Positions 53,792 through 62,306 of a stretch of 64,000 nucleotides of DNA are shown here, piece by piece. The position numbers and the translations under genes are program-made. The DNA lies in the NCBI RefSeq assembly GCF_007489275.1, contig NZ_VLNR01000021.1, positions 1 to 64,000 on the forward strand. The letters are read 5' to 3'. The notes below the pieces were generated by a model. That model made no database searches. It had not been told where the DNA came from and worked only from the letters and a program-made list of their open reading frames with translations. Positions within the stretch are counted from its first letter, which is position 1, and every line of letters starts with the position of its first letter. Source of the stretch: Aquimarina algiphila (GTDB taxonomy: Bacteria; Bacteroidota; Bacteroidia; Flavobacteriales; Flavobacteriaceae).

Positions 53792-56347
53792 TTACCAAAA
53801 GACTCTGAAGCTAATATTGGGTGTAATTCCTAGAGAAAGGATGTCAGAGTTTATGAATTGATTATTTAGAGAATTTGTTGTTCTAAATTCTCGGTTTAGC
53901 AAATTCTTCCTATTATACAAATTAAGAATTGAAAGCCCAACACGATATTTGAAATTAGAATGTGATCTTAACTTAAAATCATAAATAGCAGAAAAATCTA
54001 ACCTATGATATTCGGGTAATGTATTACTATTAATTTCTCCAAATTCTAAGATTACAATTTCACCACTATCGTCAACTCCAGATACATTAGTGAAAGACTT
54101 ACCAGTATGCCATATCCAACCTAGAGAAAACTGAAAATTATTGATTTTGTAGAATTGAGACCATTTTACTGTATGTTCAATATTCCAATTACCAGGAAAA
54201 GATTCGTTATTGTTGATGTCCTCAAATGTATTGCGTGTATTAATATAGGAATAACTCACCCATGTTTTATAGTTTTTGAATCTCTTTTTAAGAAAAAGAT
54301 CAATTCCAAAGACTCGACTTTCTCCTACATGATATGTGTTATCAATAGGATTAATAAACCCTGCGGTTAATGTTGTAATGTCCTCGATTTGTTTATAGTA
54401 ACTATCAATGTCAATAAACCATTTATTTTTTCTAAAACTACTCCCGAATGTGTATTGATAACTTGTGACTATAGGAAATTGATCATCATTAGCTAATGTC
54501 CAAACCTGATTTTCTAAAGATAGATCACTGACCACAGATTCTTGTATCTGACTTGTTGCCTGACTACGGTATTCTGCACTGGTATTGATTTCCCAATTTT
54601 TGGTAATGTATTTTTGTAGAAAAACTCTGGGTTCAATAAAGGTTTTATCTAGTTCTGCGTAAAAATTAAAACGTAATCCGGTAGAAATAAAAAAGTTTTT
54701 TGGGTTTTCGAGTTTATATTCGGCGTATGCGGCATGGGTATTTAAAAAACGATCATCCTGATCCAAGACTAATTCATAACTGGGAGTAGCAGTTACAAAC
54801 GCGTATTTGATTGTATTGTTTGAAAACTGATATCCTCCCGAAACACTCTGGTAATCTGATATTTTGTAGTCCAATTCAAATTCTGCTCCAAAATCTGCGA
54901 CATTATTTTTTTTACTTTCAATTTCTGTTATTGCACCTAGATCTCTGGTAATGAATTGATAATTTAATAGATATTTGGTATAATATCCACTTACATTTTG
55001 AGAAAGATTTTTCGAATATGATTGATTCCAGCTAAAGTTATATCCCTCATTTTCGGTAACGAGGTTATCATTAAATGACTCTACATCATCACTTCTTCTA
55101 AAATCCAAATCATTTTTACTGTAAATAGTATTGAATTCTATTTTGTGATCATCAGATGGTTTTATGATTAGATTTGCATTATAATCTGCATAGAAAAAAT
55201 CATTAACTTCATCATTAAGCTCTACCGTTTCTGCAATTTTTGTATTCTGAAAAACGCGATCTGATAACTGTTTGTATGTAAAAGTTTCTAATACATCGGT
55301 ATATGATCTTCTCCCAGATAACTGAAGAGATACTTTGTCTTTTATGATTGGTATATGCGCAACAGCATCTACGTTAATCATATTAAAACCAGCTCCGCCC
55401 GTAAAACGATTAGAAACTTCATTTTCAGACTTAATATCCACTACACCGGCGATTCGATCTCCATATTTTGCGCTAACACCACTTTTTGAAAAATTTACCT
55501 CTTTAGCAACATAGGGATTGAAAGCTGATAGCATACCAAAAAGATGTCCTTGATGATATGTTTTTATACCGTTCCATAACACTAGGTTTTGATTTGGAGT
55601 ACTACCTCTTACAAAAAGACCAGAAGCTGTTTCAAAAGGGTTGTTAACTCCCGGGGTTAGTTGTATGCTCTGTAAAATATCAGGTTCAGTTCGACCAGGT
55701 AATACTTCAACATTGTCTAAGTCAATATTGATTATCTTTTTGTTTTGTGTAATTCCTTTAGCCAAATATTCCTGAATAAAAACTTCATCAAGAATTTCTT
55801 CCTGAGCTGCATGTATAAGGCGTATTTTGATACATTCTCCTGTTATAAATTGTTTGGTGTTTAAGACTCGTTGGCGAAATCCGGGAGCACTAATCAAAAT
55901 AACAGAATTAAACGATACTTCGTTCTTTTTAAAATATCCATTTTGGTCTGTTGTGATATTGGTGCGATCAGATTTAAAGAATATCCTAATATCTTTCAGA
56001 GGCTTGTTTTCTTCATCTAAAATATATCCACAAATTGAAAGCTTATCTTTTTGGTTGAAAGAACTAATAGTAACAAAGTTATTTCCTGTAATAGTAAATT
56101 GTAATTGTGTCTGTTTTTGTAGTTCTCGGGTAAGGGTTTCTATAGATATCTCTGGGTTAATGGTAATTGAAACTTTTTTGTTATCAATTAAGTTATCGAT
56201 ATAGGAAAATTTAAGATTGTAGAGATTTTCTATAATCGTAATGGTCTCTAATAGCGATTTGTTTTCTACAGTTATCCCTTTTGTTTCTTCCTGAGAAAAA
56301 ACAGATATATACCATAAAAAAAAACATACACATAAAAGTCTTGTCAT
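53792..56347 (-). CDS. TonB-dependent receptor with STN and carboxypeptidase-like domains, 851 aa
   Basis: Outer-membrane transducing receptor. Signal peptide MTRLLCVCFFLWYISVFSQ. STN domain (about 23-95, ITVENKSLLETITIIENLYN), carboxypeptidase-like regulatory domain (about 103-185, GYILDEENKPLKDIRIFF), then a plug (about 205-310) with LPGRTEPDILQSIQLTPGVN, LFVRGSTPNQNLVLWNGIK and FSKSGVSAKYGDRIAGVVDI. A barrel follows, ending SLGITPNISFRVFW. No SusD partner is present. The FecR gene stops 4 bases upstream, and the pair shares the GGTAGGG-N16-CGTT promoter at 57288. Its ligand is unknown; the three repeat lipoproteins across the divergent promoter are likely partners. Confidence 0.92.
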   Translation of the reverse strand: MTRLLCVCFFLWYISVFSQEETKGITVENKSLLETITIIENLYNLKFSYIDNLIDNKKVSITINPEISIETLTRELQKQTQLQFTITGNNFVTISSFNQKDKLSICGYILDEENKPLKDIRIFFKSDRTNITTDQNGYFKKNEVSFNSVILISAPGFRQRVLNTKQFITGECIKIRLIHAAQEEILDEVFIQEYLAKGITQNKKIINIDLDNVEVLPGRTEPDILQSIQLTPGVNNPFETASGLFVRGSTPNQNLVLWNGIKTYHQGHLFGMLSAFNPYVAKEVNFSKSGVSAKYGDRIAGVVDIKSENEVSNRFTGGAGFNMINVDAVAHIPIIKDKVSLQLSGRRSYTDVLETFTYKQLSDRVFQNTKIAETVELNDEVNDFFYADYNANLIIKPSDDHKIEFNTIYSKNDLDFRRSDDVESFNDNLVTENEGYNFSWNQSYSKNLSQNVSGYYTKYLLNYQFITRDLGAITEIESKKNNVADFGAEFELDYKISDYQSVSGGYQFSNNTIKYAFVTATPSYELVLDQDDRFLNTHAAYAEYKLENPKNFFISTGLRFNFYAELDKTFIEPRVFLQKYITKNWEINTSAEYRSQATSQIQESVVSDLSLENQVWTLANDDQFPIVTSYQYTFGSSFRKNKWFIDIDSYYKQIEDITTLTAGFINPIDNTYHVGESRVFGIDLFLKKRFKNYKTWVSYSYINTRNTFEDINNNESFPGNWNIEHTVKWSQFYKINNFQFSLGWIWHTGKSFTNVSGVDDSGEIVILEFGEINSNTLPEYHRLDFSAIYDFKLRSHSNFKYRVGLSILNLYNRKNLLNREFRTTNSLNNQFINSDILSLGITPNISFRVFW

Positions 56348-56351
56348 GCTA

Positions 56352-57266
56352 TTACTTTTCTAATACCACGGTCTTGCCATCTTGCGATACGCTATACTCC
56401 ATGCCTAAGGTACTAAAAACTGTTTTAAGAGCCACTTCCTTATTGTTATTAGGAAAAGTTCCTGTGTATATAGTTTTGAGATTTATGTTTTTTGTATTAA
56501 TATCTAAATTATATTGTTCTTCTAACTCATCGAATACATACTTTATAGGTGTACTTCTAAATGAGCTTGTATTTGTAAGCCATGAAGGTTCATTAGACTC
56601 AAAAGTCCATTGTTCAGGATTACTATTATTTAAATTTCTATATCCTTTTCCTGCCGTAAGAATTTCTTCGTTTTTAAGATTGCTTACACTAACCTTACCT
56701 TCATAACAAGCAACTTCGAAGAAATTGTTTTGTGATTGTACATTAAATTGTGTTCCTAATACAGATACTTCTCCATTTTTGGTTGAAACAGTAAATTTAC
56801 TTCCTTTTTTAACTTTGAAATATGCTTCTCCTTTTAATGTTACGGTTCTGTTTTCATTCCAGCTATCACTGTCAAAATTTGCAGTAGATTTAGCATTAAG
56901 AATCATTTCGGATCCATCAGGTAAAGTAACCGCTAATTGTTCTCCGTAATCAGATGAGAAAGAATCATTAGAATTAAATAAAAATAACCCTAAAATAATT
57001 GCGATTGAAGCTGCTACCGCTGTGTATGGCCATAATTTTATAACTAAACCAGAGTTCTTATTCGTCGTGCTATTTCGTTTAGATTTTAAAGTGTGAAGTT
57101 CTTCTTCAACATCATAATCTTTTAGATCCAAAGCATCTGCACCCGCCATTATCTTTACATAATATTCATATTCAGGATGAGACTTAAATTCACGAAGTTC
57201 CTCTTCAGAAAGCTCTCCGCTAATCCATCTGGATAAGAAAATATCGTCTTTTTTATCGTCTAACAT
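56352..57266 (-). CDS. FecR-type anti-sigma factor, 304 aa
   Basis: Single-span anti-sigma factor. Residues 1-70 are the cytoplasmic sigma-binding part (IFLSRWISGELSEEELREF), and the membrane helix is about 75-97. The periplasmic FecR domain (about 105-205) shows LAVTLPDGSEMILNAKSTANF, VTLKGEAYFKVKKGSKFTV and VSVLGTQFNVQ. A C-terminal DUF4974/STN-like domain (about 235-302, TPIKYVFDELEEQYNLDI) follows. It sits between the ECF sigma gene and the receptor, as in FecI-FecR-FecA systems. A GGTAGGG-N16-CGTT promoter lies 21 bases before its start, so it is expressed separately from the sigma gene. Confidence 0.92.
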   Translation of the reverse strand: MLDDKKDDIFLSRWISGELSEEELREFKSHPEYEYYVKIMAGADALDLKDYDVEEELHTLKSKRNSTTNKNSGLVIKLWPYTAVAASIAIILGLFLFNSNDSFSSDYGEQLAVTLPDGSEMILNAKSTANFDSDSWNENRTVTLKGEAYFKVKKGSKFTVSTKNGEVSVLGTQFNVQSQNNFFEVACYEGKVSVSNLKNEEILTAGKGYRNLNNSNPEQWTFESNEPSWLTNTSSFRSTPIKYVFDELEEQYNLDINTKNINLKTIYTGTFPNNNKEVALKTVFSTLGMEYSVSQDGKTVVLEK

Positions 57267-57287
57267 AACTTCGGTTATATATATGTG

Positions 57288-57314
57288 AACGTTTCATTTG
57301 CTAATTACCCTACC
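57288..57314 (-). promoter_or_regulatory. ECF-type promoter, site 1 (fecR-receptor operon)
   Basis: Minus strand: GGTAGGG (57308-57314), exactly 16 bases, CGTT (57288-57291), then 21 bases to the FecR start codon. This is one of four sites with identical boxes and spacing. Confidence 0.8.
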
Positions 57315-57405
57315 TTTTATTTGTAAAAAGATTGAATTTTTAATTTTTACTACCATAAAAAACTATTTTTAAGTATTTTATGTTGCGACATCTTTGTATT
57401 TAATA

Positions 57406-57927
57406 TTAAATATTTCCTATTTTTTTTCGTAAGGCTAATAATGCCTTATGCATTAATTTCTCTATAGCTTTTACAGATACATCTGATAATTCTGCAATTT
57501 CTTTATAAGTCTTTTTGTCTATCCTACTCAAAAGAAATACTTCTCTTTGTCGTTCTGGTAAATCAGCGATCGCACTTTTTAGTTTCTCCATATATTCTTT
57601 TTCTAAGATGACAAATTCTGGAGATTCATGGTTAATATCGGTTTTACGCTGTACTATATAATCTTTGTACTTGAATTTTACTTTTTGATGACGTGTATTG
57701 CTAATGCCTAAGTTAGTAGCAATAGTATAGACATAACTTTTTGCTTTGTCAATAGGTACTTTAGAGCAATTATTCCACAGTTTGATAAATGCATCCTGAA
57801 CGATATCTTCTGCTTGCTCCATATCTCCAAATTTATAATAGATATAGTTTCTCAAAGATTTAGAGTGGTTTTTAAAAAACCTGTCAAAAGCATTTTCGTT
57901 ACATGTAGAATTTTTATTATCAGACAT
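57406..57927 (-). CDS. ECF RNA polymerase sigma factor, 173 aa
   Basis: FecI-like sigma factor. Region 2 (about 10-85) shows FDRFFKNHSKSLRNYIYYKFG and the EQAEDIVQDAFIKLWNN core-binding helix. Region 4 (about 115-168) shows LPERQREVFLLSRIDKKTYKEIAE and a recognition helix VSVKAIEKLMHKAL. It is followed by its FecR partner and TonB receptor. Its own promoter is of the housekeeping type (TTTG-N19-TAGATTTG at 57950-57980), while the downstream genes and three divergent lipoprotein genes carry GGTAGGG-N16-CGTT, the likely target of this factor. Confidence 0.93.
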   Translation of the reverse strand: MSDNKNSTCNENAFDRFFKNHSKSLRNYIYYKFGDMEQAEDIVQDAFIKLWNNCSKVPIDKAKSYVYTIATNLGISNTRHQKVKFKYKDYIVQRKTDINHESPEFVILEKEYMEKLKSAIADLPERQREVFLLSRIDKKTYKEIAELSDVSVKAIEKLMHKALLALRKKIGNI

Positions 57928-57949
57928 TGGGGAGGTAAAATATATTTTT

Positions 57950-57980
57950 CAAATCTAGATTTTTTTTTCAAGCTATCAAA
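57950..57980 (-). promoter_or_regulatory. Sigma-A promoter of the ECF sigma gene
   Basis: Minus strand: TTTG (57977-57980), exactly 19 bases, TAGATTTG (57950-57957); full consensus. It gives a leader of about 15-20 bases before the sigma start codon. Confidence 0.7.
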
Positions 57981-58004
57981 AATAAAAAAATTAAAGTATG
58001 CTAG

Positions 58005-58031
58005 GGTAGGGTGTTCTTTTTTTGAGTCGTT
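58005..58031 (+). promoter_or_regulatory. ECF-type promoter, site 2 (first repeat lipoprotein)
   Basis: GGTAGGG (58005-58011), 16 bases, CGTT (58028-58031), followed by TCATTT. The start codon is 58 bases downstream. Confidence 0.8.
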
Positions 58032-58089
58032 TCATTTTAGAGAAGTAGAAAAGGACTTCTAAAATTAATAACTCAAAAAATTACACACA

Positions 58090-59241
58090 ATGAAAAAAAT
58101 TGGTATTTGGTATTTTTTAATACTTTCACTTTTATTAGGGTTTACATCTTGTGATGATGAAACAGAAGATTTTGATAATGATCCAAAAGTAGAGATTGTT
58201 ATCGATAATAAAGAAGGAAGCGCGGTCTATAGTTTTGAAGCTAAAACAATCGGTATTGATGATAATGCACAAGTGATTTGGTCTGTGGATGGAAAAGACA
58301 TAGAAGGAGAAGATCAACAAAATATCATTAACCAAATCTTAGATTATTTATTTAAACCAGGAAAACATACAATCTGTGTTAGGGTAATAACAGAACAACG
58401 AACAATAGAAGCTTGTGCAGAGATTAATGTAGATGTGGATCAAAACAACCCATGTCCAGATTTATTTTTTAAAGCTAAGCGTTATCAAGGGCCGTTTACA
58501 TATAAGTTTATAGCAAATTTTGAAGGAGTTGAAAATGCATCCTATGAATGGTCTGTTAATGGAGAATTGGTTCAGGAAGCTTCACAAAATGATAATCAAT
58601 ATCTTATTTATAATTTTGAGCAGGCTGGAGAATACGAGGTGTGTATCATGACCGAAACACCAGATTGTCCTCAAGGAGTGTCCTACTGTAAAGTCATTGA
58701 GGTAAAAGACGATAATAATGGATTATGCCCAGAGTTATCTTTTATTACTGAAGGGAATTTGTTGTTTGCTAATTTTCCTGAAATGGAAGAATTGGAAGCT
58801 TATGAATGGTTTGTAGATGGTCAATTAGTAGAAACTGAATCTCTTCAGAATCAAGATCGTGATGATTTACTTAATTTAGAATCTTACAATCCAGGAACAT
58901 ATACGGTTTGTATTAAAGCAGAAACACCAGATTGCCCTAATGGGACAGAATTTTGTAAAGAAGTTGTTATACCAGAACCTAAGCCAATAGATTGTTCTGT
59001 ATTTGATTTGGTAAACTTTAAAGATAAAGCAGCTGTAGCAGGTGCTATATCTATTACAGATATTGATCCTAATTCTGTGGTTTGGACCATCGATGGCACA
59101 GTAATTACTCCAATAACACCTAGAGTTGCCCGACTTACGGATCATGTTACTCAACCGGGAAAATACGAGATTTGCTATAAAGCTGTTTCTCCAACATGTG
59201 GGACTCTCGAGAAATGTATCGAAATTGATTATAAAGGGTAA
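58090..59241 (+). CDS. Lipoprotein of four cysteine-bearing PKD-like repeats, 383 aa
   Basis: Lipobox LGFTSC, C21, then an acidic linker. The rest is four repeats of about 85 residues. Each opens with a C-P-x-L/E-x-F-type strand (the first with KVEIVID), has a central Y/V-x-W-x-V-D/N-G turn, and in most copies closes with G-x-Y-x-V-C-I-K-x-E-T-P-D-C-P-x-G-x-x-x-C-K. The W-x-V-D-G core and strand spacing recall PKD or Ig-like domains; the paired cysteines suggest disulfides within each repeat. It is probably surface or periplasmic. The first repeat is nearly identical to that of the next gene, marking a tandem duplication. Function is unknown; binding or receptor partner is inferred. Confidence 0.85.
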   Translation: MKKIGIWYFLILSLLLGFTSCDDETEDFDNDPKVEIVIDNKEGSAVYSFEAKTIGIDDNAQVIWSVDGKDIEGEDQQNIINQILDYLFKPGKHTICVRVITEQRTIEACAEINVDVDQNNPCPDLFFKAKRYQGPFTYKFIANFEGVENASYEWSVNGELVQEASQNDNQYLIYNFEQAGEYEVCIMTETPDCPQGVSYCKVIEVKDDNNGLCPELSFITEGNLLFANFPEMEELEAYEWFVDGQLVETESLQNQDRDDLLNLESYNPGTYTVCIKAETPDCPNGTEFCKEVVIPEPKPIDCSVFDLVNFKDKAAVAGAISITDIDPNSVVWTIDGTVITPITPRVARLTDHVTQPGKYEICYKAVSPTCGTLEKCIEIDYKG

Positions 59242-59294
59242 TGTGTAGAAAATCATAGTGATTTTTCTATATAATATATTATTTATATAAAATC

Positions 59295-59332
59295 AAAAGA
59301 AGGTTATGTATATATATGTAACCTTCTTTTTT
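59295..59332 (+). terminator. Intrinsic terminator
   Basis: AAAAGAAGGTTA (59295-59306) pairs with TAACCTTCTTTT (59319-59330), followed by T. It separates the first and second repeat lipoprotein genes, which therefore have separate transcripts. Confidence 0.88.
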
Positions 59333-59382
59333 ATTGATTATCAATTAATTATATAGGTTTTGTCTGTTTTTTTTAATAAGGT

Positions 59383-59409
59383 GGTAGGGGAATTCCCCCT
59401 TGATGCGTT
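59383..59409 (+). promoter_or_regulatory. ECF-type promoter, site 3 (second repeat lipoprotein)
   Basis: GGTAGGG (59383-59389), 16 bases, CGTT (59406-59409), followed by TCATAA as at site 2. The start codon is 69 bases downstream. Confidence 0.8.
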
Positions 59410-59478
59410 TCATAAATGTACGGCAAATAGAAAGCCAATTTTAAATTAATAATTGAATAACCCCTAAAATCAAATACA

Positions 59479-60639
59479 ATGAAAAAACTTAGAATTTGGT
59501 ATACATTGATGCTTTCGCTTTTATTGGGATTTATTTCTTGTGAACAAACAGAAGATTTTGATAACGAACCCAAAGTAGAGATTGTTATAGATAATCAGGA
59601 AGGGAGTGGAGTGTATAGCTTCGAAGCTAAAACCATAGGTATGAGTGATAATGCGCAAGTCATTTGGTCTGTGGATGGGAAAGAAATTGAAGGAGAAGAT
59701 CAAGAAAATATTATCAATCAGATTTTGGATTATTTATTTAAGCCAGGTAGTCATACCATTTGTGTTAAAGTAATAACCGATCAACGTACAATAGAAGCTT
59801 GTACAGAAATAGAGGTTGAGGTTGATGAAAATGACCCTTGTCCAGACCTGTTTTTTAAGACTAGACAATATGAAAGGCCATCTACATATAAGTTTATTGC
59901 AGATTTTGATGGTGTAGAAGAAGCTTCTTATGAATGGTTTATTAATGGTGATTTAGTAAAAGATACTTCAGAGAATGGAAATAACTATTTGATTTGGAAC
60001 TTCAAAGAAGCAGGAAGATATGAAGTATGTATGAAGACTGAGACTCCAGATTGTCCTCTAGGAACATCATATTGTAAAGTGATTGAAATTGAGGAATCTG
60101 ATTTAGTGTGTCCAGAAGTTTCTTTTACAAAAGAAATGGAGCCAGGGACTTTTGGCACCTATACTTTTGAAGCGCAAATAGAAAGTAATGATGATGTGGC
60201 AGAAATTAAGTGGTATGTAAATGGTGATCTTGTAGAATCTCCTACAGACCCGCAAGTAGGAAATAGAACGCTATATTACCAGTTTGGTTCTGGAGCTCAT
60301 GAAGTATGTCTTAAGGTAACTACTCAAAATTGTCCAGAAGGGATTAAATATTGCAAAGAAATTAGAGTAGGAGATTGTCCGGATCTTTTCTTTGAGCCAG
60401 AAAGAGATGGAGATAAGAATGCATATTATTTTTACCCTAGAGCTTTTGATGGTATAGATGATGTTGTTCTAGAATGGTTTGTCGATGAGCAATACGTAGG
60501 AAGATCTCCAGAGTTTCCACACAACAATCCGTATTATTATGAGTTTGATGGACCTGGTAGATACGAAGTGTGTTTAATGATCGAAACTCCAGAATGTCCA
60601 AATGGAACTTCATTCTGTAAAGTAATAGAATTTGAATAA
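59479..60639 (+). CDS. Lipoprotein of four cysteine-bearing PKD-like repeats, paralogue, 386 aa
   Basis: Lipobox LGFISC, C21. It has the same four-repeat plan as the gene before it. Repeats 1 and 2 are close copies (VIDNQEGSGVYSFEAKTIG against VIDNKEGSAVYSFEAKTIG). Repeats 3 and 4 have diverged, the last being GDCPDLFFEPERDG to CKVIEFE and more regular than its counterpart. Cysteine positions of repeats 2-4 are conserved (VC-x7-CP-x5-C). This pattern suggests duplication followed by diversification of the distal, outward repeats, as in ligand-binding surface proteins. It has its own ECF-type promoter and a terminator at 60689-60723. Confidence 0.85.
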   Translation: MKKLRIWYTLMLSLLLGFISCEQTEDFDNEPKVEIVIDNQEGSGVYSFEAKTIGMSDNAQVIWSVDGKEIEGEDQENIINQILDYLFKPGSHTICVKVITDQRTIEACTEIEVEVDENDPCPDLFFKTRQYERPSTYKFIADFDGVEEASYEWFINGDLVKDTSENGNNYLIWNFKEAGRYEVCMKTETPDCPLGTSYCKVIEIEESDLVCPEVSFTKEMEPGTFGTYTFEAQIESNDDVAEIKWYVNGDLVESPTDPQVGNRTLYYQFGSGAHEVCLKVTTQNCPEGIKYCKEIRVGDCPDLFFEPERDGDKNAYYFYPRAFDGIDDVVLEWFVDEQYVGRSPEFPHNNPYYYEFDGPGRYEVCLMIETPECPNGTSFCKVIEFE

Positions 60640-60688
60640 TAAAAATATATAATTAATTAAGTTGTTTAGGTTAGATTAATTAGGTTGA

Positions 60689-60723
60689 TTTCCCTGAAAG
60701 TATGGCCATTACTTTCGGGGAAT
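60689..60723 (+). terminator. Intrinsic terminator-like hairpin
   Basis: TTTCCC-T-GAAAGTA pairs with TACTTTC-G-GGGAA around a short loop, followed by TTTCATT. It lies 50 bases after the second repeat lipoprotein gene. Confidence 0.7.
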
Positions 60724-60826
60724 TTCATTATTGAATTCTACTTTTGAAGGTATAATCTTATATGTTTTTTTGATTGTGATTATATTTTTATACTTTCATG
60801 ACCTATTGATTATCTTAAAAATAAGA

Positions 60827-60853
60827 GGTAGGGTAAATATGTTTTTAAACGTT
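60827..60853 (+). promoter_or_regulatory. ECF-type promoter, site 4 (third repeat lipoprotein)
   Basis: GGTAGGG (60827-60833), 16 bases, CGTT (60850-60853), then 22 bases to the TTG start, nearly the same distance as at site 1. Confidence 0.8.
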
Positions 60854-60875
60854 ATATATATAAGAACCAGTCATA

Positions 60876-62306
60876 TTGAATAAAATTTACACATATTATA
60901 CTGTTTTTATACTAATGATAGCCTTATTGGTATCTTCATGTGTGAACGATGATGGTTCCTTTCCTGAAGATCCTGGTAATGAAATTACATCAACCTCAGC
61001 AATCGTTACTATTCTTAATGATTTAAATGCTAAAGGAGATACTTTTTCAGAAGATCAACTATGCTTTAGATTTCAATATCCATTGACTTTGGGATATAAT
61101 ACAGATTCTAATATAAGAATTGATAGTTATCAAGGTTTATTGGATGTGATTTCAGGTCAAAGTTCTAATTTTAATATTACAGGAATTCAGTTTCCGGTCG
61201 AAATTATATACAGCGGAAATACAACGACAAACGTTATAGGGAATGAGGCCGCCTTATTTGAGGTAATTCGAGAATGTCAATTAACTACATTTAGAGATAT
61301 CTTCAATAAACTTTTTAAGCAATGCTTCAAGTTTGATTATCCAGTGATACTTAAGAACGGAAATAAGGAAGAAACTACTATTGATGGCGATGAAGGTTTT
61401 ATTCGTTTTTTAAGTGCTCAAGGAGAAAATTATCAACCAGATTTTACATTCCCCGTAAATATTTTAGTCGCTCCAAATTTTGAAGCCAATAGGATATCAA
61501 CCTATTATGAGTTCTATCAAATTTTGAATACATGCGTAGGATGTCCGGATATTAGATTCGATATCGTACCATTACAGGATAATATATATCAGTTTACTCC
61601 AAATTTTGAAATAGGAAATGGATATGAATTATCTTTTAAAGTAAATGAAGAGGTTATTCCTGATGTTATTATAGATGGAAACGTGTTTACAAGACAGTTT
61701 AGCCCGGGGACATATGAAGTTTGTATAAAAGCAATAACACCAGATTGTCTCGAAGGTAAGAGTGTTTGTAAAGAAATAATTGTAGAGCCAATTTGTCCGG
61801 ATTTATTATTTGATTTTGTACAGCAACCCGGTAGTCTATCGTATAATTTTACGGCAGATTTTGTTGGGATAGATGACATATCTTATGATTGGATAATTGA
61901 TAATGAAGTTATAGAAAGTGATGGAGGGGCTAATGGAGATAATATGTTTACTTTTGATTTTACTCCAGGAACTCATAAAGCATGTATAAAAGCTGAGACG
62001 CCATCATGCCCAAATGGGATCGAGCTTTGTAGAGACATTATAGTTTGTCCAGAATTATCTTTTACTTCAATGCAGCAGGGAGTAACAAGTACATATGACT
62101 TTGTCGCAAATTTTCCGGGAAAAGAAGATATATCATATCAATGGCTCATTAATGATAATATCCAGGAAGAAGATGGAGGAGCAGTAAATGGAGACAATGA
62201 ATTTACATTCAATTTTACTCCGGGTGATTATGAAGTTTGTATTGTTACCGAAATTGAAGGATGTACAGATGGAGTGAGATTTTGTATGAGCATAAGTATC
62301 CCATAA
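60876..62306 (+). CDS. Lipoprotein with two N-terminal domains and three PKD-like cysteine repeats, 476 aa
   Basis: It starts at TTG. The lipobox is LLVSSC, C22. Residues 40-225 hold two copies of a different domain, each with a cysteine early (QLCFRFQYPLTL and KQCFKFDYPVIL), a D-x-x-x-G segment, an F-P-V-x-I strand and a closing helix ending in C (FEVIRECQ and FYQILNTC). Residues 228-476 hold three repeats of the same PKD-like kind as the two upstream genes (CPDIRFD, CPDLLFD and CPELSFT openings; YEVCIKAITPDC closings). It differs from its neighbours in the membrane-near part but shares the distal repeats and the ECF-type promoter, so all three probably serve the same system. Confidence 0.82.
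   Translation: MNKIYTYYTVFILMIALLVSSCVNDDGSFPEDPGNEITSTSAIVTILNDLNAKGDTFSEDQLCFRFQYPLTLGYNTDSNIRIDSYQGLLDVISGQSSNFNITGIQFPVEIIYSGNTTTNVIGNEAALFEVIRECQLTTFRDIFNKLFKQCFKFDYPVILKNGNKEETTIDGDEGFIRFLSAQGENYQPDFTFPVNILVAPNFEANRISTYYEFYQILNTCVGCPDIRFDIVPLQDNIYQFTPNFEIGNGYELSFKVNEEVIPDVIIDGNVFTRQFSPGTYEVCIKAITPDCLEGKSVCKEIIVEPICPDLLFDFVQQPGSLSYNFTADFVGIDDISYDWIIDNEVIESDGGANGDNMFTFDFTPGTHKACIKAETPSCPNGIELCRDIIVCPELSFTSMQQGVTSTYDFVANFPGKEDISYQWLINDNIQEEDGGAVNGDNEFTFNFTPGDYEVCIVTEIEGCTDGVRFCMSISIP

Follow-up and report, generated by a model that had tools for sequence, protein, structure and literature searches.

An ECF sigma factor of Aquimarina algiphila and its putative GGTAGGG-N16-CGTT regulon of lipoproteins, small proteins and candidate small RNAs

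Which promoters are read by a sigma factor of the extracytoplasmic function (ECF) type whose gene stands beside those of a FecR-type regulator and a TonB-dependent receptor? The targets of such ECF sigma/FecR/receptor systems are mostly unknown in Bacteroidota, and as of 2020 none of the ECF sigma factors of B. thetaiotaomicron had a known motif (PMC7366714). The question is raised here by the genes at 53792-62306 of a 64,000-nucleotide (nt) stretch of Aquimarina algiphila DNA, hereafter the window (contig NZ_VLNR01000021.1; host genome of 7.0 Mb in 271 contigs), in which the sigma factor, the FecR-domain protein and the receptor are encoded side by side, as in FecI/FecR/FecA-type systems. The answer we propose is a signalling system whose sigma factor very probably reads promoters of the form GGTAGGG-N16-CGTT, at the locus and also at distant sites in front of lipoproteins, small proteins and RNAs. 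The sites, their spacing and conservation, their co-occurrence with the sigma factor, the terminators and the covariation of the -10 element with a sigma residue are taken from sequence comparison.

The putative promoters of the locus, including that of the sigma gene itself, are the following:

57288..57314, minus strand: ECF-type promoter GGTAGGG-N16-CGTT of the fecR-receptor operon, 21 nt before ATG
58005..58031, plus strand: ECF-type promoter of lipoprotein 1, 58 nt before ATG
59383..59409, plus strand: ECF-type promoter of lipoprotein 2, 69 nt before ATG
60827..60853, plus strand: ECF-type promoter of lipoprotein 3, 22 nt before a TTG start
57950..57980, minus strand: primary-sigma-type promoter of the sigma gene, TTTG-N19-TAGATTTG, by sequence match

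The pattern GGTAGGG-N16-CGTT is present exactly four times in the window, against a mean of 0.02 in 100 dinucleotide shuffles, none of which gave four. An earlier note on this DNA, which had placed four sites with a 16-base spacing 21-69 bases before the starts of fecR and of three lipoprotein genes, is right in coordinates, strands, spacing and distances. The -10 element contains a CGT box at 16-17 bases from the -35 element, as in a canonical ECF promoter; the -10 element of SigW is CGTA.

Conservation was followed from the protein and not from the motif. The sigma protein was searched in 66 Aquimarina genomes and 59 loci around its relatives were taken, 45 of which are orthologs (69-95% identity) and form, together with the window, a set of 46 loci; the named relatives at 75-95% identity are Aquimarina records, plus one metagenome-assembled genome named just Bacteroidia bacterium. 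The order sigma, fecR, receptor is kept in all 46 loci. An exact N16 site stands before fecR in 44 of them, the remaining two having an N17 site in one case and AGTAGGG-N16-CGTT in the other. In the 45 ortholog loci (839 kb, both strands), which hold 152 GGTAGGG heptamers, the distance from GGTAGGG to CGTT, allowed to vary from 8 to 26 bases, is 16 in 132 cases, 17 in two and 11 in two, all other lengths being absent. Two loci contain one exact site, four contain two, 32 contain three and eight contain four. The sigma loci hold 133 distinct exact sites: 43 precede fecR and 87 a lipoprotein gene, 130 in all, and three have no open reading frame (ORF) near; 29 fecR and 86 lipoprotein assignments were automatic, and 14 fecR and one lipoprotein assignments were added by reading the listing. 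Lipoproteins in divergent orientation were seen in at least two to three of the ortholog loci listed. This synteny and the shared promoters support the view of the earlier note that the receptor and the lipoproteins form one surface system. In L090, L099 and L101, where lipoproteins 1 and 2 were not found, the divergent promoter is kept and is followed by about 350 nt without a long ORF; in some species stretches of about 5.5 kb lie between the lipoprotein genes.

Could this conservation merely reflect recent duplication or common descent of the DNA? The genes of lipoproteins 1 and 2 are paralogs in tandem and their leaders resemble each other, which makes their two promoters not fully independent, and eight of the sigmas form one tight clade. 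The spacers, on the other hand, vary in sequence while keeping their length across loci down to 47-58% FecR identity, and the same promoter class is found in Kordia, Arenibacter, Maribacter and Cyclobacteriaceae, which makes this explanation extremely improbable. The statement that the sites are not simply duplicated DNA thus stands for the comparison across loci, and it has to be qualified for the paralogous leaders of lipoproteins 1 and 2.

The sigma gene itself appears to be served differently. No GGTAGGG-N16-CGTT site reads toward it within 260 bp in any of the 46 loci, and TTTG-N17-21-TAnnTTTG occurs within 260 bp upstream of it in 29 of 46 orthologs and on the other strand of the same stretch in none; TAnnTTTG alone is found in 45 of 46, a figure without strand control. 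The TTTG-N19-TAGATTTG promoter previously assigned to this gene is indeed present. Transcription of the gene would accordingly depend on the primary sigma factor, and feedback would pass through FecR and the receptor only. The proposal of a positive feedback through the FecR arm is supported as to the arm, the promoter preceding the fecR-receptor operon and never the sigma gene (0/46). As to the sign, a FecR-type protein can inhibit its sigma factor or be needed for its activity, and the feedback could go either way.

The number of sites follows the presence of the sigma factor. Exact sites number 333 in the 66 genomes, and matches to the reversed pattern 62. A close sigma (E<=1e-57) is present in 56 genomes, which have on average 5.75 sites; the 10 without one have 1.1 (Mann-Whitney p=1.5e-6; p=4e-4 when the sigma-less set is restricted to the five of ten that are at least 95% complete). 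In G030, one of the genomes without a close sigma, the promoter recurs at L221 (G030:C1:2817967-2821144) in three nearly identical copies at intervals of about 1.57 kb, and the first two copies are followed by near-identical genes of 392 amino acids (aa). One may ask at this point whether the heptamer is instead the operator of a separate DNA-binding regulator, the promoters being ordinary ones. In favour of this, a G-rich -35 element is unusual for an ECF sigma factor. The spacing to CGTT fixed at 16 bases in 132 of 136 cases is the geometry of an ECF promoter, the site number follows the sigma factor, and the -10 base changes with region 2.4 of the sigma factor, as described below; we consider a separate operator very unlikely.

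How far does the regulon extend? The genome-wide search that the earlier note had called for yields eight exact N16 sites and one N17 site in the host; the latter is intragenic, and all eight N16 sites have a plausible downstream unit. Of the four that lie off the window, two precede lipoproteins, one with a leader of 172 nt (C13) and one adjoining the operon of a paralogous sigma, FecR and receptor (C79); a third precedes an RNA unit bounded by a terminator (C218), and the fourth a microprotein of 34 aa (C228). The two off-window lipoproteins have no Pfam match, and an 'SGNH-like' label given to one lipoprotein by eye was dropped for lack of such a match.

From a larger set, 136 off-locus exact sites, picked by the motif, were read across the genus. 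Lipoproteins follow 23 of them; a membrane protein of about 57 aa follows 18, most with a leader of about 230 nt (L123, L149, L161, L168, L169 and others); and a protein of 32-34 aa ending in KELP[AS]SSS[NS]AIHR and conserved between species lies directly behind the promoter at four (L053, L116, L148, L155). Non-coding units of four families account for 36 sites, 33 of which have a called terminator where the RNA ends, and hairpin-rich non-coding units without a called terminator for six. As judged by these sites, the predicted regulon is larger than four promoters, and the candidate small RNAs and the 32-34 aa microprotein had escaped the earlier note.

Two of the RNA families were also recovered by models that leave out the promoter, and their host copies are:

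C218:51326-51404: candidate small RNA sRNA-C, covariance model match
C210:13584-13708: candidate small RNA sRNA-A, covariance model match

sRNA-C, of about 80 nt, has the core AACTTATCTAT(T)AACGTAAATGG; sRNA-A usually measures about 115 nt, a few copies being longer, and has the core GTTTRAGGGACAAA within an AATCTG/CAGATT helix. Both end in a T-run hairpin with compensatory changes. A terminator is called at the RNA end at 15 of 16 sRNA-A and 11 of 12 sRNA-C sites, and the folding energies of the host copies of sRNA-C and sRNA-A have z values of -2.8 and -4.0 relative to mononucleotide shuffles. Covariance models were built from the transcribed part only, the promoter being left out, and searched across the genus, a promoter beside a match being defined as at least 10 of 11 bases (for sRNA-C at N16, once N17). 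All 18 sRNA-C matches at E<=2e-4 have the promoter directly upstream, eight of them lying outside the model, compared with none of eight weaker matches, two of which are antisense to true ones. Of the 27 sRNA-A matches at E<=6e-9, 26 have it, including 11 of 12 outside the model (L299, whose locus begins at a contig edge, is counted because the promoter is visible in L136), and none of the three weaker matches with loci, seven more weak ones being left out. The sole miss, L303, has a 10/11 match at N17, 103 bases off. Five of the matches outside the models carry GGTGGGG, a variant beyond the reach of the exact pattern. Rfam 15, run on eight loci, returned no known family, its one match (E 0.15, 23.5 bits, gathering threshold 174.8) falling elsewhere in L301.

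sRNA-A and sRNA-C thus combine an own promoter, an intrinsic terminator and a conserved structure, and the short terminator-bounded units probably act as regulatory RNAs. That they might instead be 5' leaders, decayed genes or regulatory DNA is suggested by the long hairpin of cluster 4, at which a terminator is called in none of six sites, and by the three of 36 sites of the other four families at which none is called (33 of 36 being called). We regard this as improbable: the terminators of sRNA-C and sRNA-A lie about 80 and about 115 nt past the promoter, their stems show compensatory changes, the host copies fold with low energies, and both families were found without using the promoter. 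Further families are present in other species; in G012 (L199, G012:C6:170960-171496) four RNA units lie in tandem at a spacing of about 170 bp, every one behind an exact promoter and three with a called terminator. In L154, L167, L177 and L184, from four species without a model match for sRNA-A or sRNA-C, there is an RNA unit of about 190 nt with a CCTCCCTTT/AAGGGAGG terminator. All five RNA families taken together, at least one RNA is present in 36 of 56 sigma-bearing genomes and in none of the five complete sigma-less ones (p=0.009, a value weakened by three of the five families having been found through the motif itself); without the terminator-less family the count is 30 of 56.

What, then, would keep this regulon apart from those of related sigma factors? 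The -35 element [AG]GTAGGG with N16 is also used by paralogs, in other genera and in another order with a different first -10 base, so that the heptamer alone does not identify the regulon of this sigma factor, a point likewise absent from the earlier note; the class appears in records of Kordia, Arenibacter, Maribacter and Cyclobacteriaceae, the last belonging to the other order. In the host, AGTAGGG-N16-TGTT lies between sigma and fecR in the pair on C252, and other sigma/FecR pairs have related sites in some cases and G-rich look-alikes or none in others. Of 109 genus sigmas, 87 have a site near fecR. Among these, the first -10 base is C with R at residue 79 of the sigma factor in 54 of 54 rows, T with A (25) or K (one) in 26, and G with E in six of six, one R row having A; the L017 row (K79, poor -35) is doubtful and was kept in the counts. 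No other position has as high a mutual information with this base. In a hold-out of 28 sigmas of other genera, 25 with a promoter, A goes with T in 18 of 18, R with C in two of three, K and N with T, and E with T in two of two. Among 25 further named loci, 23 with a site, R goes with C in nine of nine and K with T in 14 of 14, although the genomes partly overlap the earlier sets. A strict code R-C, A-T, E-G was rejected, E79 having TGTT in both cases outside the genus. A third sigma type, among the 22 genus sigmas without a site near fecR, has TGTT sites far upstream of sigma and mostly K, I, V or L at 79; in L348, L349, L351, L364 and L373 GGTAGGG-N16-TGTT is found 0.7-1.1 kb upstream. In L382 and L393, visual inspection shows GGTAGGG-N16-GATT after the sigma gene; position 76 of these sigmas is K and might belong to the code as a second position.

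A structural rationale can be proposed. In M. tuberculosis sigma-H, region 2 reads the -10 GTT: N88, I91 and N92 contact -10/-11, and I91/N92 recognise the -11 pair by way of the template strand (PMC6411747, in the portion that treats these contacts). With N88 aligned to N72, residue 79 would sit about one helical turn past the -11 readers, near the next base pair. The same portion names no residue for the base before GTT, unlike our proposal for residue 79.

Do paralogous sigmas nevertheless read the same promoters redundantly, with no private regulon? They share the GGTAGGG -35 element and N16. Some cluster 3 lipoprotein sites lie near a paralogous sigma (4 kb on host C79; 22-33 kb in G033, G045 and G046), the diverged host copy of sRNA-A has TGTT, and G030, without a close sigma, has four sites. 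The first -10 base, by contrast, distinguishes with few exceptions the systems that possess a fecR of their own, and paralog-bearing genomes without this sigma have few CGTT sites (one in G007, one in G011, none in G015), so that full redundancy seems to us rather unlikely. We prefer the reading in which this sigma factor has promoters of its own, and the proposal that it reads the four promoters of the window is strongly supported by the 46 loci, the co-occurrence in 66 genomes and the -10/residue covariation. The diverged second sRNA-A copy (E 4e-7) adjoins the first, and the tandem (C210:13584-13896, L301) has GGTGGGG-N16-CGTT before one unit and GGTAGGG-N16-TGTT before the other, as if they were assigned to different sigmas.

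Several observations weigh against the proposed system. ECF promoters have, as a rule, AAC in the -35 and CGT in the -10 element (PMC8103513, in the section concerned), and the -35 element here is [AG]GTAGGG without AAC. The sigma locus itself contributes to the site excess of sigma-bearing genomes, most of which also have more matches to the reversed control (1.2 in 46 genomes and 0.3 in 10, versus 0.4). The off-locus sites are motif-selected, 23 of 136 being without a 90-aa ORF or an RNA call and 26 preceding other ORFs. The two model-found RNA families alone are present in 25 of 56 sigma-bearing and none of five complete sigma-less genomes (p=0.06), and two incomplete genomes without a found sigma, G022 and G036, carry sRNA-A. 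One pattern search and a crude duplex test yielded no convincing target of the RNAs: the exact complement of the sRNA-A core (TTTGTCCCTYAAA) has 16 matches in 10 genomes, nine being the RNA gene by place, and the best duplexes of sRNA-A and sRNA-C with the window leaders, those of sRNA-C with the start of the receptor (an energy reached by 8 of 200 shuffles) and then with fecR (16 of 200), are not convincing since 12 pairs were tried. The coupling of residue 79 with the -10 base needs just three changes on the tree, one of which is the L371 row, an R79 sigma with first base A 288 nt off, probably a chance match and kept in the counts. Moreover, 22 of 109 genus sigmas have no site between sigma and fecR; L355, an R79 sigma without such a gap site, has a TGTT site upstream; E79 is paired with GGTT in six of six cases in the genus and with TGTT in two of two outside it; and three loci with R79, two from Kordia and one from Flavobacteriaceae, have CGTT before fecR and TGTT in the divergent promoter.

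The model we propose is as follows, sigma binding, the direction of signalling, the function and targets of the RNAs and the role of the ligand being what we infer. The TonB-dependent receptor would sense a ligand and signal through the membrane protein FecR to the ECF sigma factor, which, released or activated, would bring RNA polymerase to GGTAGGG-N16-CGTT. The output at the locus would be the renewed synthesis of FecR and the receptor together with one to three PKD-repeat surface lipoproteins, and at distant sites further lipoproteins, small proteins and short terminator-bounded RNAs. These RNAs may supply repression in the way that MicA and RybB give E. coli sigma-E its repression (PMC8103513, in the part on these RNAs). 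Insulation from the siblings would come from the first -10 base, the R79 sigma using CGTT and the A79/K79 siblings TGTT with the same -35 element.

The genes of the locus are consistent with such a surface system:

57406..57927, minus strand: ECF sigma factor, 173 aa; TIGR02985 at 134.1 bits (cut-off 126.4), Sigma70_r2 and r4_2, R79 in region 2.4
56352..57266, minus strand: FecR-type sigma regulator, 304 aa; PF04773 at 72.1 bits (above cut-off), PF16344 at 30.7 bits
53792..56347, minus strand: TonB-dependent receptor, 851 aa; plug domain, CarbopepD_reg_2-like domain just under cut-off
58090..59241, plus strand: surface lipoprotein 1; PKD/Ig-like repeats, lipobox with acidic residues after the cysteine
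59479..60639, plus strand: surface lipoprotein 2, paralog of lipoprotein 1; PKD/Ig-like repeats
60876..62306, plus strand: surface lipoprotein 3; two alpha/beta repeats, then PKD/Ig-like repeats

The sigma protein consists of the sigma2 and sigma4 domains only, its TIGR02985 score exceeding the curated cut-off. Residues 27-91 of the receptor are weakly FecR_C/STN-like (PF16344 at 22.9 bits, below the cut-off of 24.4), and a sequence search of the PDB with the receptor gave no match at E 0.001. All three PKD-type lipoproteins have acidic residues shortly past the lipobox cysteine. The predicted structures of lipoproteins 3 and 2 are Ig/PKD arrays (mean predicted local distance difference test 82 and 77, predicted template modelling score about 0.45); Foldseek, run with the model of lipoprotein 3, returned generic fibronectin-III and adhesin arrays with low template modelling scores, and neither the two models nor this search gave a clue to an enzyme or a ligand. 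The stretch 56300-60900 has no plasmid match.

With a simple promoter rule valid across genera, the regulons of Bacteroidota ECF sigmas could be compiled by searching sequences. How related sigmas avoid cross-talk can be tested directly on the residue-79 series, and small RNAs under a FecR-controlled sigma would let such systems repress genes as well as activate them. Could Bacteroidota FecI/FecR signalling have a repressive arm like that of sigma-E, with dedicated small RNAs for each sigma, and siblings that share a GTAGGG -35 element and are separated by a single -10 base read by one region 2.4 residue? We put this forward tentatively, at somewhat less than an even chance; if so, whole regulons of many uncharacterised ECF sigmas would be readable from sequence, and the tandem sRNA-A pair of the host (CGTT/TGTT) would be a duplicated RNA gene handed to a sibling sigma.

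Among the papers listed in a literature search by title and abstract, none deals with this promoter or with sigma-driven RNAs in the group, the coverage leaving out most subscription journals and the result being no proof of novelty; the system appears to be of a known kind, with an apparently undescribed promoter class and candidate small RNA genes. The comparisons that follow concern those parts of the cited sources that treat the points in question. Like E. coli FecI-FecR-FecA, it combines an ECF sigma factor, FecR and a TonB-dependent receptor with a sigma gene that would not be autoregulated, fecIR being not autoregulated in E. coli (PMC9249621); unlike it, fecR stands with the receptor under the putative promoter of the sigma factor, the sigma gene is apart, and the predicted targets are PKD lipoproteins and candidate RNAs. 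The SM6 promoters of F. psychrophilum likewise have a flavobacterial ECF-type -10 element with a CGT box, but they are tied to type IX secretion genes and a GGTAGGG-type -35 element is not mentioned for them in that part (PMC9723704). In the residue-nucleotide code of ECF sigmas, single sigma2 and sigma4 residues set the -10 and -35 bases (Todor et al. 2020, via PMC8103513); the present case, for which the idea alone is compared, is a natural series within one sigma family that shares its -35 element. Finally, the regulon of E. coli sigma-E is that of an ECF sigma factor and includes small RNA genes (MicA, RybB, MicL; PMC8103513), as the candidate RNAs suggest for the present one, which differs from it in the TIGR02985 sigma family, the control by FecR and a receptor, the unrelated RNAs and the phylum.

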